Assembly (NCBI GenBank): GCA_944323695.1
Contig: CALUTI010000003.1
Coordinates: 62,001 to 126,000, forward strand
Source: Candidatus Gastranaerophilales bacterium
Lineage (GTDB): Bacteria > Cyanobacteriota > Vampirovibrionia > Gastranaerophilales > Gastranaerophilaceae
Length of the DNA: 64,000 nt
Direction: 5' to 3'
Part shown: positions 1-9,806 of the stretch, piece after piece
How the letters are laid out: each line of letters begins with the position of its first letter
Numbering within the stretch: position 1 is the first letter of the stretch
Notes under the pieces: generated by a model
What the model saw: the letters and a program-made list of their open reading frames with translations, nothing else
The model's database searches: none
Told to the model about the DNA's origin: nothing
Program-made: the position numbers and the translations under genes

Positions 1-3000
1 GTAAATAATGGACAACTTATTACAACAAACAAAGGTGCAGATATCCTTTTTGATTCATTAGTAAATACAAGTAACATAAAAACCGGCGACAAAATTGCCA
101 TGGAAAATGGCAACATTATGATAAAAACCGACGTGCGTGACGGCGGTATAGATATCGCAGGCTTAGTAAAAAATAACGGTAAAGGTGATATTACATTAGC
201 AAATAATGGTACAAAAAACTTGAACGTTTCCGGAAAAGTTGAAAACGCTAATGGCAATATTTCTCTTGTAAACAGACAATCTAATGTCGCAATTTCCGGT
301 GACATGTCAAACTCCGGCGGCACGCTTTCAGTTGTAAATAACAAAGGACATTTACATTTAAAATCAACAGGCAGCATAACAAATGACGGAGAATTACGTC
401 TGGTAAATCGCAACGGCGAAACTTTGATGGTTAACGGCAAAGTTTCAAACGACGGTAAAATACTTATTTCAAGCAATTCCGGAAAAGTATCAATCGGCGG
501 TAAAATTGATAATAAAAACGGAACTTTAACGGTAGTAAGTAACGGTTCAGGTCTTGAAGTAACAAAAGATGCTGAAATTTCAAATAATGATGCTATTAAA
601 ATGGCAAATACCGGTAAAGATGGCTTCACAATGAACGGTACAATTAAAAACAGCGGTTCAACAGCACTTACAAACTGGTGGGGCAATTTTAAAATCGGCG
701 GAACAATTAACAATTCCGAAGGTAAAATGAATTTGTCAAATGCAGATTCAAAAATGACAATCACTAAAGACGCCAGAATAACAAATAATGGTGATTTGCA
801 AATTATTAACGCAGGCAAAGACGGTTTAACAATTGACGGCAGCGTAAATAATTCAAGCACAACAAATATCCAAAACGTAAAAGGCAACTTGGATATAAAC
901 GGTGATGTAATAAATTCAAACGGCAAATTAACCATTCAAAACAGCGGTAACGCACTTAATACCGGCAAAAATTCCACTATATCAAGCACAGCAAACACTG
1001 AAATCAAAAATTCAGGAAAAGGCGGCATGAACCTTAACGGAATGTATTTAGGCTCAGGCAATACTACAATTGATAACCAAAACGGTGACCTGAATATCAA
1101 TAATACTGTTGCACAAATCGGCAACAAGCTTGTTATTAAGAATTCCGGAAATGCTTTGAATATCAATAGCAGCGTTAAAGGTACAAAAGATGATTATATC
1201 GGTTCCGTAATAAGCAACGGTGCAGATGTAACTATTTATAACACAGGAAAAGGCGGTACAAATATTAACGGTGTTATTTCAAAAAGCAGCGATGAAACAA
1301 AAAATATTTCAATTGTAAACAGAAACGGCGGATTGAATATATTTGACGCAGACATTTTGAATACTAACGGAAATATAAGTATCTCTAATAGCGGCACCGA
1401 AGCATTAAAAATGGATGAAAATACCGTAATTGATAACAAAAACGGTCAATTGACAATCCTTAACGGTTCAGAAAAAGGTGCTCAAATTGATTCAAAAATT
1501 TCCAACAACGGAGTTACAAATATTACTAACCTTAAAGGACATATCTCAACAAATGCCATCATAACAAACAAAAATGGCAAACTTGAAATTGTTAACAACG
1601 GTTCAGGTATGACAATTGATTCCGATGCCTATATTACAAATAATACTGACGTAAAAATTGCAAATACAGGCAACGAAGGCTTGGAACTCAAGGGTAACAT
1701 TGAAAACAACGGTTCTACAGCTATTTCAAACTGGGCAGGCAAATTCAAAATAAGCGGTAAAGTTGAAAACTCAAACGGCAAAATGAATATTACAAGCGCT
1801 CAAAATAGTACAGGACTTCACTTAACCAAAGAAGGCCAGATAATTAACAATAATGACGAATTACTTGTTCAAAATACCGGAAAAGGCGGTATGATACTTG
1901 ACGGTCAGGTTAAAAATAACAGCTCAACAACTTTGTATAATACAAACGGTAATATGGAAGTTAACGGACTTGTACAAAACAAAGGTACTTTGATGATTTC
2001 CAACAGAGGTCAAAGCTTAACCGTCGGAAATGATGCAATAATCAAAAATAACGGTAAAACAACCGTTAGAAATTCCGGTGCAAGAGGAATGAACATCAAC
2101 GGCACAATCGCAAATGAAGACGGTGTACTTAACATTGAAAATAATGCAGGCGCTTTAAATATTAGTGAAGATGCCTGGATTACAAACCGTAATGATGAGA
2201 TAAACATTAAAAATAACAGCGGTTATGCAATGAATATCGACGGTAACGTATACAGTCTTGAAAGTGACAATATAAATTTAACTAACAACCACGAAAACGG
2301 CGGTATAATTATCGGCAAAAACAGCTCAATTAAAACCGACGGGAATGTAAATTTAACAAACGTTGGTAAAAAAGGATTAAAAGTCCGTGGCGCTGTTGAT
2401 GGTAAAGATATTAACGTTGATAACAGTAACTCTCATTTAGTTCTGGGTCACGCAGGAATGACTGCGGATTCCAAAGCTAATCTTACTGCTTCAAACAACA
2501 TTAATATTAAACAAAAAGATGGTTCTATCTTGAATGCAGGAACTAAAGAAACACAAATCCGTGCAGGCAAAGATTTGAGCATTAAAGTTGACAACGGTAA
2601 AATCGGTGTTGAAACCGGAACAAGCGGCGGCGGATATACTTATGGTCCTGACGGAACACAAGTTGACACCTCAAAATCAATTAACATTGATGTTAAGGGC
2701 AAAATCAATGCCGAAACTAATGACACATTAGGCACAGGCGGTGATTATGTTATCAATATGTCAAGCAAAGGTTCAAATATGAATGTTGACCACATCAAAG
2801 CTGACGGCAGAGTAATTCTGTTAACAGACTTAGATGAAAACGGCTTGACAGGTTCCATTTTGAATGCTTCAACAGATCCGACAAAAGCAAATATTGAAGC
2901 AAAAGGCTTATCTTTAATTTCCAGCGGAACAATCGGTTCTGAAGATAAAGCATTAACAGTAAACGATACAAACTATGCTTACAAATCCGATTACGAAGCA

Positions 3001-3234
3001 TTGGGTGATATTATTCTCCAGGCTCTTGATGACCAATATTCAAAAGCTGATGTAAGATATATTATCACAAGAGACGGAAAGATAAAAGCTGAATTCACAG
3101 GTAATGCACGTGTAAAAGACACCTATTCAGGTGCAGGAGTAATTGACGTTACAAACAGAACAGGCAATATGAATCTTATCAATAATGGTTCAACTCCTAA
3201 CACCGGTATAACTTATTTCAACTTTTTACAATAA
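1..3234 (+). CDS. C-terminal part of a giant repetitive adhesin-like surface protein (5' truncated by window)
   Basis: The frame is open from base 1, so the beginning lies outside the window and about 1,077 C-terminal residues are seen. The first 870 or so residues are Asn/Gly/Ser/Thr-rich repeats of roughly 40-45 residues, with elements such as 'ITNNGDLQIINAGKDGL' and 'IDGSVNNSSTTNIQN'. This spacing of short beta strands is typical of right-handed beta-helix stalks of filamentous haemagglutinin-type adhesins. I saw no cysteine. The last 200 residues lose the repeat and end 'ITYFNFLQ', with no LPXTG-like anchor or obvious autotransporter barrel. A surface-exposed adhesin is inferred from architecture only; secretion route and ligand are unknown. 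It is convergent with the prepilin gene downstream and ends just before a strong terminator. Confidence 0.75.
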   Translation, partial: VNNGQLITTNKGADILFDSLVNTSNIKTGDKIAMENGNIMIKTDVRDGGIDIAGLVKNNGKGDITLANNGTKNLNVSGKVENANGNISLVNRQSNVAISGDMSNSGGTLSVVNNKGHLHLKSTGSITNDGELRLVNRNGETLMVNGKVSNDGKILISSNSGKVSIGGKIDNKNGTLTVVSNGSGLEVTKDAEISNNDAIKMANTGKDGFTMNGTIKNSGSTALTNWWGNFKIGGTINNSEGKMNLSNADSKMTITKDARITNNGDLQIINAGKDGLTIDGSVNNSSTTNIQNVKGNLDINGDVINSNGKLTIQNSGNALNTGKNSTISSTANTEIKNSGKGGMNLNGMYLGSGNTTIDNQNGDLNINNTVAQIGNKLVIKNSGNALNINSSVKGTKDDYIGSVISNGADVTIYNTGKGGTNINGVISKSSDETKNISIVNRNGGLNIFDADILNTNGNISISNSGTEALKMDENTVIDNKNGQLTILNGSEKGAQIDSKISNNGVTNITNLKGHISTNAIITNKNGKLEIVNNGSGMTIDSDAYITNNTDVKIANTGNEGLELKGNIENNGSTAISNWAGKFKISGKVENSNGKMNITSAQNSTGLHLTKEGQIINNNDELLVQNTGKGGMILDGQVKNNSSTTLYNTNGNMEVNGLVQNKGTLMISNRGQSLTVGNDAIIKNNGKTTVRNSGARGMNINGTIANEDGVLNIENNAGALNISEDAWITNRNDEINIKNNSGYAMNIDGNVYSLESDNINLTNNHENGGIIIGKNSSIKTDGNVNLTNVGKKGLKVRGAVDGKDINVDNSNSHLVLGHAGMTADSKANLTASNNINIKQKDGSILNAGTKETQIRAGKDLSIKVDNGKIGVETGTSGGGYTYGPDGTQVDTSKSINIDVKGKINAETNDTLGTGGDYVINMSSKGSNMNVDHIKADGRVILLTDLDENGLTGSILNASTDPTKANIEAKGLSLISSGTIGSEDKALTVNDTNYAYKSDYEALGDIILQALDDQYSKADVRYIITRDGKIKAEFTGNARVKDTYSGAGVIDVTNRTGNMNLINNGSTPNTGITYFNFLQ

Positions 3235-5431: not shown

Positions 5432-6133
5432 TTATTCTTGTCTAGGATCGATATATTTAACGGCATCAGCGAATCTGCCATAAGTACCGATATTCTTTTC
5501 ATAGGCTTCTTTAGGATCAACGCCTTTTTTAATAGCATCCATAACTTTGCCAAGGTTAACAAACTGATAACCGATAACCTCGTTATTTTTATCGAGACCC
5601 ATTTTCAAGATATAACCTTCAGTCAATGAAAGATATCTTACGCCTTTTTGTTTTGTTGAGTGAATAGTACCAACCATTGAGCAAAGTCCTTTGCCCAAAT
5701 CTTCAAGTCCTGCGCCTACGGGAAGACCGTTTTCAGAGAATGCTGATTGGGTTCTGCCATATACGATTTGCAGGAATAATTCTCTCATTGCAACGTTGAT
5801 AGCATCACAAACAAGGTCTGTATTTAATGCTTCAAGAATAGTTTTGCCCGGAAGAATCTCAGCAGCCATAGCAGCAGAGTGAGTCATGCCTGAGCATCCG
5901 ATTGTTTCAACAAGAGCTTCTTGAATAACACCTTCTTTAACGTTAAGTGTTAATTTGCAGGTACCCTGTTGAGGTGCGCAGCATCCGCAGCCGTGTGTAA
6001 GACCTGAGATGTCTTTGATTTCTTTACATTTTGTCCATTCGCCTTCTTGAGGGATTGGTGCAGGTATGCCTTTAACTCCTCGGCATACACAGCATTGATT
6101 TTCAATTTCATGTGTAATTTCTATTTTGCCCAT
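5432..6133 (-). CDS. NifU-like iron-sulfur cluster assembly scaffold protein
   Basis: 233 residues. The central part has the IscU/NifU N-domain pattern, with conserved cysteines in 'GCGCCAPQQGTC' and 'IGCSGMTHSAAMAAEIL'. The N-terminus carries an extra CCVC cluster, and a C-terminal extension of about 90 residues includes GTIHSTKQKGVRYLSL. This longer form is the type found next to GGGtGRT proteins. It probably holds or transfers Fe-S clusters. ATG at 6133 follows AAAAAGGAGG. It is the first gene of the two-gene operon with 4320-5321. Confidence 0.85.
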   Translation of the reverse strand: MGKIEITHEIENQCCVCRGVKGIPAPIPQEGEWTKCKEIKDISGLTHGCGCCAPQQGTCKLTLNVKEGVIQEALVETIGCSGMTHSAAMAAEILPGKTILEALNTDLVCDAINVAMRELFLQIVYGRTQSAFSENGLPVGAGLEDLGKGLCSMVGTIHSTKQKGVRYLSLTEGYILKMGLDKNNEVIGYQFVNLGKVMDAIKKGVDPKEAYEKNIGTYGRFADAVKYIDPRQE

Positions 6134-6223
6134 TTGGCCTCCTTTTTCATTAACTGTCTATTCCTGTAAAAAATTATACTATAAACAAAATCTCTTTTAA
6201 TATTTTTTTAGTATAATATTTTT

Positions 6224-8305
6224 ATGGATATCTTAAGCGAAATCGTTGACGAGTTTAAAAGTGAAGAGAGTATAAAGGCTATTGTTCTTGGCGGGTCATG
6301 TGCAAGCCAATATAACGATTCCGATTCCGACTATGATTTGTATATTTATTCAGATAAGCCCGTAAATGTGACAAAACGCCGTCAAATTGCAGAAAAATTT
6401 GCACAAAAGTTTGAGGTAGACAACAACTTTTTTGAAAACGGTGACGAATGGATTTTGAAAAACTCTCAAAAAGGTATTGATATTATGTACCGCTCGCCGG
6501 ATTGGATTGAGGGACAAATCAAACGTATTTGGGAAGATTACGGAGCATCTGTAGGGTATTCAACATGTTTTATTTACAATGTAAAAAATTCCAAAATTTT
6601 ATATGATACTGCCGGCTGGTACAAAAACCTTCAGGATAAAGTCAGCGGCGAATACCCCGAACAGCTCCGGAAAAACATAATTGCAAAAAATCTTCCGCTT
6701 TTGTACGGGAAAATGGCCGCGACTTTTGCCGATCAAATTATCCTTGCCGTAAAAAGAGGGGACATAAACAGTGTTAACCACCGCATAAGCGCATTTTTGG
6801 CAAGCTACTTTGATGTAATTTTTGCAATAAACAAACAACTTCACCCGGGAGAAAAAAGACTTATCAGATTTGCAAAAGAAAATTGCAATATCTTACCTGA
6901 AAACTTTGAAAAAAATATAGAAAATTTAATAACTTCAACTGAAAAAGAAAAATACTTAAACGAAATTATAAAAGAGCTTAAAAAGGAGGTCATAATGACA
7001 GGAAACACAACAGCTTTATCACAAAATCTCGGAATTTCCGCAACATTTACCGGAATAGATTTTGACAAATACTCATCAAAAGTATCAGAATTTGTAAATG
7101 AATTTTCTTCACGCGCAAATAAAAAAGGACAATTTTTGAACTGGGTAAATTTACCTCAGGAACAAATCAAACGTGTTGATGAAATTTATTCACTTGCTGA
7201 AAAATTAAAAAATCAAACAGGCGCCGAAAAATTAAGCGTACTTGGTATCGGCGGTTCAAAACACACTGTTGAACACATGTTAAGCATCAACGGTTTGAAT
7301 GTTAATCAGGATAAAATCCTTTTCTACTCAGATGTTGATTCCGCAAGTTTGGAAAGATATTTGTACAGATTAGGTGATATCACAAAATCAAATTACCTTA
7401 TCGCATCAAAATCAGGTTCAACTTTTGAAACAAAAGACGGCTTCTTGAGAGTACAAACAATGCTTGAAAACGAATACAAAGCAAAAGGCCATTCAAACTA
7501 CGAAGAATTAGCAGCAAAACACTTCATAGCCGTAACAGACGGAAATGCAGAAAAAAGTGAGCTTAGAAGAACTTCAAATGAAAAAGGCTGGCTCGGCGAT
7601 TTATACATCCATGATGATGTAGGCGGAAGATTTTCAGCATTTGATGATCATGCTTTGTTTACATTGGCTTATGCAGGAATGGCAAAATCAGATATGATAC
7701 AAATGCTTGAAGCTGCACAGGAAATCTCATCACGAGCTTTGACTGCTGATTTAGACAAAAATATTGCGCTTAAAGAAGGTATTTTCTGGGCAAACGCAAC
7801 ACTCAACGGAATTTTAACATCAGTTCATCAGTATATGGGTTCAATTTTTGAAAACACCGTATACTGGCACGCACAAATGCAAAATGAATCAGTTAAAAAC
7901 ACCTTAAAACAGGTTGCAAAAGTCCCTGATGCAATGCATCACAGTGCAGAAGCACACTTCAACCCTGCAAACAAATTTGCATTTGCACTTACAACTCCAA
8001 AAGATCATGGTGTATGCAGAGAAAATGCAGAAAGCTATATTCAGGCACTTGAAAAATCTTACGAAAGTATGGGTGCATTCTTCAATGAATCAGTTGAAAC
8101 AAAAGGAATGGGCTTAACACCTGAAGCAGCAGGCGCAATGACTCAATTAAGAGCATACGCAACAGTTTATCAGGAAATTGTTGAAAAAATTATGCAAAAT
8201 ATCGATTTTCCGGAAGTACTCGACAGCGTACTCCAGCCGCACGTTGAATATTACAAAAAGAACCTTAAAGGCGGAGTTGTTGTTCCGGGAAGAATTTCCG
8301 AATAA
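6224..8305 (+). CDS. pgi: Fused nucleotidyltransferase-like domain and glucose-6-phosphate isomerase
   Basis: 693 residues. Residues 1-257 begin with a nucleotidyltransferase-fold signature (GGSCASQYNDSDSDYDLYI, two Asp of the DxD type) and a helical region. Residues 258-693 are a glucose-6-phosphate isomerase: 'VLGIGGSKHTVEHML', the phosphosugar loop 'SKSGSTFETKDGF', 'DVGGRFSAFDDHALF', and a normal C-terminus. The isomerase interconverts glucose-6-phosphate and fructose-6-phosphate in glycolysis. No stop separates the halves, but AAGGAGGT followed by ATG at 6995 restarts exactly at the isomerase, so a free isomerase of about 436 residues may be the main product. A TATAAT box ends 6 bases before the ATG at 6224, predicting a leaderless start. 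The substrate of the first domain is unknown. Confidence 0.85.
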   Translation: MDILSEIVDEFKSEESIKAIVLGGSCASQYNDSDSDYDLYIYSDKPVNVTKRRQIAEKFAQKFEVDNNFFENGDEWILKNSQKGIDIMYRSPDWIEGQIKRIWEDYGASVGYSTCFIYNVKNSKILYDTAGWYKNLQDKVSGEYPEQLRKNIIAKNLPLLYGKMAATFADQIILAVKRGDINSVNHRISAFLASYFDVIFAINKQLHPGEKRLIRFAKENCNILPENFEKNIENLITSTEKEKYLNEIIKELKKEVIMTGNTTALSQNLGISATFTGIDFDKYSSKVSEFVNEFSSRANKKGQFLNWVNLPQEQIKRVDEIYSLAEKLKNQTGAEKLSVLGIGGSKHTVEHMLSINGLNVNQDKILFYSDVDSASLERYLYRLGDITKSNYLIASKSGSTFETKDGFLRVQTMLENEYKAKGHSNYEELAAKHFIAVTDGNAEKSELRRTSNEKGWLGDLYIHDDVGGRFSAFDDHALFTLAYAGMAKSDMIQMLEAAQEISSRALTADLDKNIALKEGIFWANATLNGILTSVHQYMGSIFENTVYWHAQMQNESVKNTLKQVAKVPDAMHHSAEAHFNPANKFAFALTTPKDHGVCRENAESYIQALEKSYESMGAFFNESVETKGMGLTPEAAGAMTQLRAYATVYQEIVEKIMQNIDFPEVLDSVLQPHVEYYKKNLKGGVVVPGRISE
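6980..6997 (+). promoter_or_regulatory. Internal ribosome binding site for free glucose-6-phosphate isomerase
   Basis: AGGAGG at 6984-6989, a 5-base spacer, then ATG at 6995 in the same frame as the upstream domain. It is among the strongest Shine-Dalgarno sequences in the window, and it sits at the domain boundary (residue 258). Confidence 0.8.
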
Positions 8306-8396: not shown

Positions 8397-9806
8397 ATGA
8401 AAATACTGCCCATAACAGGATTTTATATACAAAGACAAACGCCTAAAAAGCAGGAACCCGGACAGCCACAAGTTTTGCAAACGACAAAAAATCTTAATTA
8501 TTATGTTCCGTTTATGGGTTACTACGGCGACAACCAGCCTGTCAAAAAATTATACTGGATTACAAGCCGCAGTAACATACCAAAACACGATAACTGGACT
8601 GATAATCATATTTATGAATACGGTTACAAAAAATGGATAAACGCATACCCCAATGAAGTCTTAAAAAGAACACCCGCCGAAACAATTAATTCCATTATGA
8701 CCTTAACCGGCAAAAAGCGCGTACCTGATTACATCCCGTCACCTGATATAGGAGGCGACATGTGGGGGCGTCACGCAAATTACATTGAGATAAATCCGCG
8801 GTTAATTGCAAAATATGAAAACGGAAAAGTTTCAGACGGTCTTTTAAATACAATGAAACTGATGACTATGATTCCGCCGTCATCCGATAATGCGGCAAAC
8901 TGTATTATTCTATCCCAGCTTTACCCGTCATTTTACGGCGACGGAACAACACAGGATGAGACACTTTATCATGTTAATTTACATGACGGAATAAGCAAAA
9001 ATCTGACAGCAAGAGGTTTGGATTACAAAATGGGAGATGACGAACAGGTCAAAGCATTCAATGATTTAGCACATCTTTTGGGTTTTAAAACAGGTATCCG
9101 CATGCCGATTTCATCAGGACAGCTGAGGGTAAAAGGGGAAGATTTTTCCTGGCAAAAGCATGAAAAATCCTACATTGATGCCTGTGTCTGGGCAATTGAA
9201 CTCGGATTTGATGCAATATATTTTGACAGCGCAAAACATATTATTGATATGAACGGCTATTGCGGCATAGGTGAGGTTCCAAACAAAGAGCAAATGGCAT
9301 ATATTTTACATAAAATAAGAGAACAAACCGGACGCAGCAATCTTGCATTTATCGGAGAAAAATGCAGTGATAATCCTGTTTATCAGCAAATGGGATTTAC
9401 TGCCGGAACTCACTGGGGAGATTCTGCAAATATTGAACATGTTAAACATGAATCAAGAAAACAAGCATGTTCACAAGATTATGCAGCAGGTCCGGAGGTT
9501 TCAAACGACAATGACTATGGCGAAAAAACTTTTGAAGAACGCTTATTAAGGCTTAATTCATGCCTCTTCGGCTATGATAATCCGAAAGATAAGCTGCCCT
9601 CATTTATGCAAATAAATGATATTTTGCCGTTCTCACCATTTATAAATACACACCAGGTCATGGAACATACAATTCAACTGAACGGATCCGATGCCTGGAC
9701 GGAATGTGAACGGCACCTGGACGGAATTTTTAGAAACGATAATGACGCAAGAAATTATACACAAAAGGTTTATCAGATATTTAGTAATGCAATGTATAAA
9801 AATTAA
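8397..9806 (+). CDS. Divergent alpha-amylase-family-like (TIM barrel) protein
   Basis: 469 residues, no signal peptide. Segments resemble the conserved regions of GH13 barrels in order: 'GFKTGIRMPISS' (about residues 232-243), 'GFDAIYFDSAKHI' (region II, putative nucleophile Asp), 'AFIGEKCSDN' (region III, putative acid/base Glu), and 'PFINTHQ' (position of the usual FxxNHD, here without Asp). Retention of Asp and Glu suggests a glycan-active barrel, but loss of the region IV Asp makes the activity uncertain. The first 55 residues are a low-complexity lead-in. It is a single gene between the pgi terminator and tRNA-Gln. Family assignment rests on motif reading only. Confidence 0.5.
   Translation: MKILPITGFYIQRQTPKKQEPGQPQVLQTTKNLNYYVPFMGYYGDNQPVKKLYWITSRSNIPKHDNWTDNHIYEYGYKKWINAYPNEVLKRTPAETINSIMTLTGKKRVPDYIPSPDIGGDMWGRHANYIEINPRLIAKYENGKVSDGLLNTMKLMTMIPPSSDNAANCIILSQLYPSFYGDGTTQDETLYHVNLHDGISKNLTARGLDYKMGDDEQVKAFNDLAHLLGFKTGIRMPISSGQLRVKGEDFSWQKHEKSYIDACVWAIELGFDAIYFDSAKHIIDMNGYCGIGEVPNKEQMAYILHKIREQTGRSNLAFIGEKCSDNPVYQQMGFTAGTHWGDSANIEHVKHESRKQACSQDYAAGPEVSNDNDYGEKTFEERLLRLNSCLFGYDNPKDKLPSFMQINDILPFSPFINTHQVMEHTIQLNGSDAWTECERHLDGIFRNDNDARNYTQKVYQIFSNAMYKN

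Follow-up and report, generated by a model that had tools for sequence, protein, structure and literature searches.

The window analysed here, a stretch of 64,000 nucleotides from a Candidatus Gastranaerophilales bacterium, carries on its forward strand a single open frame that runs from ATG to TAA at 6224-8305 (693 codons). In the encoded protein a nucleotidyltransferase (residues 1-257) is joined directly to a protein of the phosphoglucose isomerase (PGI) fold that starts at Met258. The first-pass annotation had described a 77-kDa fusion; the single frame stands, and its computed mass is 78.3 kDa. The features of the locus are the following:

5432..6133, minus strand: NifU-like scaffold protein, divergent neighbour (weak NifU_N match, under the Pfam cut-off)
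6205..6217, plus strand: conserved -10-like element TTTTTAGTATAAT, 6 nt upstream of the transferase ATG
6224..6994, plus strand: nucleotidyltransferase half, 257 codons, with a Pol-beta/MNT-like catalytic domain and a DUF4037 (HEPN-like, ANT C-terminal) domain
6983-6997, plus strand: internal Shine-Dalgarno (SD) and start AAGGAGGTCATAATG, read as K-E-V-I-M in the fused frame, with the preceding A
6995..8305, plus strand: PGI-like half, 436 codons and stop, a free protein if translation starts at Met258

The NifU-like neighbour is a landmark for where the transferase gene lies in the genus, and is found likewise in L092, L096 and L044. Elsewhere in the window, a 1044-aa repetitive Asn/Gly-rich ORF (100-3234) appeared by eye to be filamentous surface- or adhesin-like, and a 469-aa ORF with neither a Pfam match nor an SD lies downstream of the fused gene (8397-9806); L092 has a related ORF after its fused gene.

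The transferase half matched three Pfam models over residues 4-211 (Polbeta, 3.9e-8; NTP_transf_2, 7e-7; DUF4037, 5e-6), and its DUF4037 score of 27.7 bits lies above the Pfam cut-off of 22.1. The catalytic motif GS...DxD...D is complete, with GGS at 23-25, D36-x-D38 and D86, and G24, S25, D36, D38 and D86 are invariant in 16 relatives. The motifs had been described as GGS-DSD-type; the actual motif, D36-x-D38...D86, is slightly different from DSD. When modelled separately (AF2, pLDDT 94), the transferase half found its nearest PDB folds, over its full length, in ANT(4') (kanamycin/neomycin), KNTase (1kny) and LinB (3jyy), with E-values of 3e-8 to 3e-7 and TM-scores of 0.55-0.63. It shares with the aminoglycoside and lincosamide nucleotidyltransferases both the GS..DxD..D motif and the combination of a Pol-beta domain with a DUF4037/HEPN-like C-terminal domain; a survey of HEPN domains lists DUF4037 alongside the Aminoglycoside_NT_C domain (PMC3710099). 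In contrast to those enzymes, to which it is just 12-16% identical, it is here fused to a PGI-like protein, and it had no match among the NCBIfam antibiotic-resistance models. By analogy with ANT(4') and LinB, this half probably acts by nucleotide transfer to a small molecule. Membership of the type VII toxin-antitoxin MntA was rejected, given a score of 24 bits against a model cut-off of 60 and a PGI-like neighbour; no HEPN toxin gene was seen beside the transferase. A defence system was also rejected, as PADLOC returned weak matches only (E 0.006-0.02).

The isomerase half retrieved PDB PGIs both by sequence and by fold, and PGIs were its best PDB matches in the fold search (E 5e-18). PGI family models match it over residues 278-560; with NCBIfam PGI models the score reaches 80 bits, far under every equivalog cut-off, so the reaction that it catalyses is uncertain. 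PF00342 gave no match to this half at E-values up to 10, whereas two paralogs from its own family do match that model, at 41 and 56 bits. The first-pass annotation had taken the fusion partner to be the glucose-6-phosphate isomerase of glycolysis. That identity was rejected, since the same genome encodes a separate canonical PGI (G000:C2, at about 219 kb; PF00342, 150 bits) and the fused half lacks the PF00342 match; the fused half is a divergent PGI paralog. It has the same fold as PGI (3ff1, 3ifs, 1c7r and 7ntg; TM to target about 0.7-0.8) and keeps the phosphate-binding, Arg, Glu, His and Lys positions of the active site (S395-K396-S397-G398..T400, R469, E555, H572 and K678), which we take to correspond to the catalytic positions of the canonical enzyme. 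R469, E555, K678, K396-G398 and T400 align to canonical PGI and show no variation among 44 paralogs; H572 does not vary among them either, its pairing with the canonical His being made by motif, across an alignment gap. Unlike PGI, to which it is about 20% identical among solved structures and about 30% in its own genome, the fused half has lineage-specific conserved residues (H347, D474, D475, E576 and N583). It probably interconverts an aldose/ketose phosphate pair other than, or besides, glucose 6-phosphate. In the full-length AlphaFold model most of the PGI part has a pLDDT of about 90, and the low confidence of the transferase half and the linker is probably due to partial rows in the mixed alignment.

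G005, G007, G010, G011 and G012 (L052-L056) encode an additional PGI paralog with 63-66% identity to the fused half, and others, 31-43% identical, occur throughout the family. These PGI-like paralogs beside the canonical PGI look like a lineage-specific expansion. G014 has two copies of the PGI-like gene (C15 and C42; L048 and L049), each with a promoter-like element and an SD, which could instead be two strains binned together.

As the first-pass annotation had proposed, the fusion was sought in related genomes, and it is present in seven of the 16 species genomes that form our sample of the genus (Ca. Gastranaerophilales): G000, G008, G009, G010 and G012, and, across contig ends, G001 and G007. 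The seven, assembled with several pipelines, form one clade on the tree of the PGI-like gene (support 99/98). The remaining genomes show other arrangements. G003 and G013 have adjacent transferase and isomerase genes with a stop codon and a spacer between them; in G006 the transferase frame continues without a stop past the start of the isomerase, giving an out-of-frame overlap of about 70 nt (L043:7100-7930); in G004 and G005 the two genes are about 1.3-1.8 kb apart. By eye, the G005 gap (L044:6829-8579) holds two small helix-turn-helix-like and two small exported-protein-like ORFs. In G002, G011, G014 and G015, no transferase adjoins the isomerase gene. When the leaders of G015 and G003 were compared (19 of 2000 shuffles), the result hinted that G015 may have lost the transferase by deletion; the same comparison of G011 with G003 did not support a deletion, and G011 retains a 3' fragment of the transferase elsewhere in its genome.

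These arrangements bear on whether the fused frame could be a sequencing or assembly artefact, that is, a missed stop or a frameshift between two genes, a possibility raised at the outset. Relatives with two genes and a stop do exist (G003 and G013), which had been named as the observation that would speak against the fusion; however, theirs is likely the older state, and the junction is near-identical in seven species genomes produced with different assemblers. Moreover, the spacer of G003 and G013 is missing from the fused junction, so that one missed base could not create the fusion, and purifying selection is seen all along the fused gene. An artefact is hardly conceivable, and sequencing error was rejected on the recurrence of the frame across species. 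The in-frame fusion of transferase and PGI-like protein is real, inherited and fixed in one Gastranaerophilales clade. The earlier suggestion of a stop lost recently holds in part: the loss of a stop fits the relatives, but it was not recent, since the fusion is older than the split between the two fused subclades, whose isomerase halves differ by a dS of about 0.7-0.8.

The internal ATG at residue 258 (position 6995), which had been singled out as a strong start, opens the isomerase part behind a near-perfect SD, and the fused genomes bear this out. The computed SD/anti-SD duplex has -12.8 kcal/mol in the fused genomes, and in most of the genus its strength is similar; non-fused relatives carry the same PGI-like start with its SD. 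The genome makes little use of the junction codons AAG GAG GTC ATA (product of codon frequencies 0.0005), and the junction contains a run of 8 unchanged codons, in length second only to one of 10 within the fused gene. The rare SD codons and the unchanged run fit an old internal start that predates the fusion and is still in use.

At the 5' end the signals are of another kind. The duplex at the transferase start is +0.6 in six of the seven fused genomes, which amounts to no SD, and the seventh (G008) has a moderate SD upstream of the transferase. An SD is present in the non-fused G004, G005 and G013 and apparently missing in the non-fused G003 and G006, so weak initiation is not tied to the fusion. 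In the fused genomes a conserved TATAAT lies 6-8 nt before the transferase ATG, where it would likely place the transcript start at the ATG itself; together with the lack of an SD, this suggests that the transferase mRNA is probably leaderless. Since neither a -35 consensus nor a sigma-70 prediction was found at this element, its reading as a -10 box draws on conservation and spacing. Bacteria can use leaderless starts; our literature search found no useful study of leaderless mRNA or PGI in Gastranaerophilales. On these sequence features, the view that the gene may plausibly yield two products, the fusion and a free isomerase-like protein, is well founded, and its output would most likely be mainly the free protein, plus some fusion.

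The missing SD, with a -10 box so close to the ATG, would also agree with a transferase ORF that is a decaying or barely translated leader, the free isomerase-like protein being the sole product, and so would the transferase's recurrent absence from members of the genus and its faster divergence (about 78% identity against 96% for the isomerase half). Against this, dN/dS within the fused clade is 0.07-0.17 for the transferase and 0.01-0.08 for the isomerase: both domains are under purifying selection, with all catalytic residues kept. Given also that leaderless starts are usable, we regard a decaying leader as very unlikely.

The frame is kept in all seven fused genomes, over a long divergence and although a 6-nt indel, itself in frame, occurs in the tail, and this could reflect selection for the fused protein. 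In such a fusion the transferase domain might modify the isomerase domain or be tethered to it, or both might act on a shared small-molecule pathway, with the free form from the internal start setting the ratio; retention of the catalytic residues in both halves and the adjacency of the same pair in the non-fused G003 and G013 are in keeping with it. However, a stop or frameshift would have to fall within a short stretch to break the fusion, which makes frame retention weak evidence, the G006 junction is frameshifted, and the transferase is missing in four of the 16 genus genomes (one with a 3' remnant) in which the isomerase-like gene stays. The wider family also speaks against such selection: outside the genus, none of the 27 family genomes for which both gene positions were listed has the two genes within 10 kb, as judged by eye. 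We therefore consider a selected fusion rather unlikely. A more specific version, in which an ANT-like transferase and a PGI-fold isomerase act together on one sugar-phosphate or glycoside pathway and the balance between fused and free isomerase is set at the internal start, is unlikely too.

Across the family, the transferase is present in 180 of 383 genomes and, among the matches listed, is fused in this genus only. Many genera of the family share the PGI-like protein at 72-82% identity, and the transferase is often missing where the isomerase-like gene is retained. Close matches to the query also occur in other families of the phylum (G540, G506, G546 and G595; best E 6e-63 to 4e-71); that in G540 is 47% identical to the transferase half, and for the other three the listing does not specify which half matched. 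Sequence comparison suggests that the transferase may have been transferred horizontally. It had been proposed that the transferase regulates the isomerase by adding AMP or GMP. Since the two genes lie apart in those cases from the wider family that were checked, nucleotide addition to the isomerase is unsupported; the nearest structures of the transferase, moreover, are of the antibiotic type, and it is frequently absent.

We thus favour as likely, taken as a whole, a fusion born of a deletion, which yields mostly free isomerase-like protein and has no specific regulatory role. An accessory ANT-type nucleotidyltransferase gene would have lain upstream of a conserved PGI paralog, and a deletion would have taken out the transferase stop codon together with the spacer and the promoter of the paralog itself, joining the two frames by chance and leaving the paralog's SD and ATG inside the joint frame. 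One mRNA would then be made from the transferase promoter, for which conservation argues. Its weak, probably leaderless 5' start would give the 78-kDa fusion, and the strong internal start a 49-kDa free isomerase-like protein as the majority product. Co-transcription and tethering are probably without specific regulatory meaning.

Genes within genes with an internal in-frame start are described for Rpn L/S (PMC10327210), where a C-terminal product is likewise translated separately within the same gene; here, by contrast, the internal start came first, having been the original start of a complete enzyme gene. The locus is a candidate gene within a gene, and its internal SD and start are conserved across relatives. 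Deletions that join two genes in frame are reported in PMC12803068; in contrast to those, here two complete, adjacent genes are joined and both are still intact. The bifunctional transaldolase/phosphoglucose isomerase (NCBIfam PRK09533) is also a fusion that contains a PGI domain, but its partner domain and PGI subfamily differ. Our literature search found no earlier report of a transferase paired with a PGI-like domain.

The genus keeps several states of one gene pair, with the genes apart, adjacent with a stop, overlapping out of frame or fused, and so documents in nature how a fusion that arose by stop loss can endure, thanks to a downstream gene that has retained a start of its own. The locus should not be annotated as 'the' glucose-6-phosphate isomerase, and it draws attention to a group of PGI paralogs, without an assignment in the sources searched, that shows strong conservation across one gut-bacterial family.
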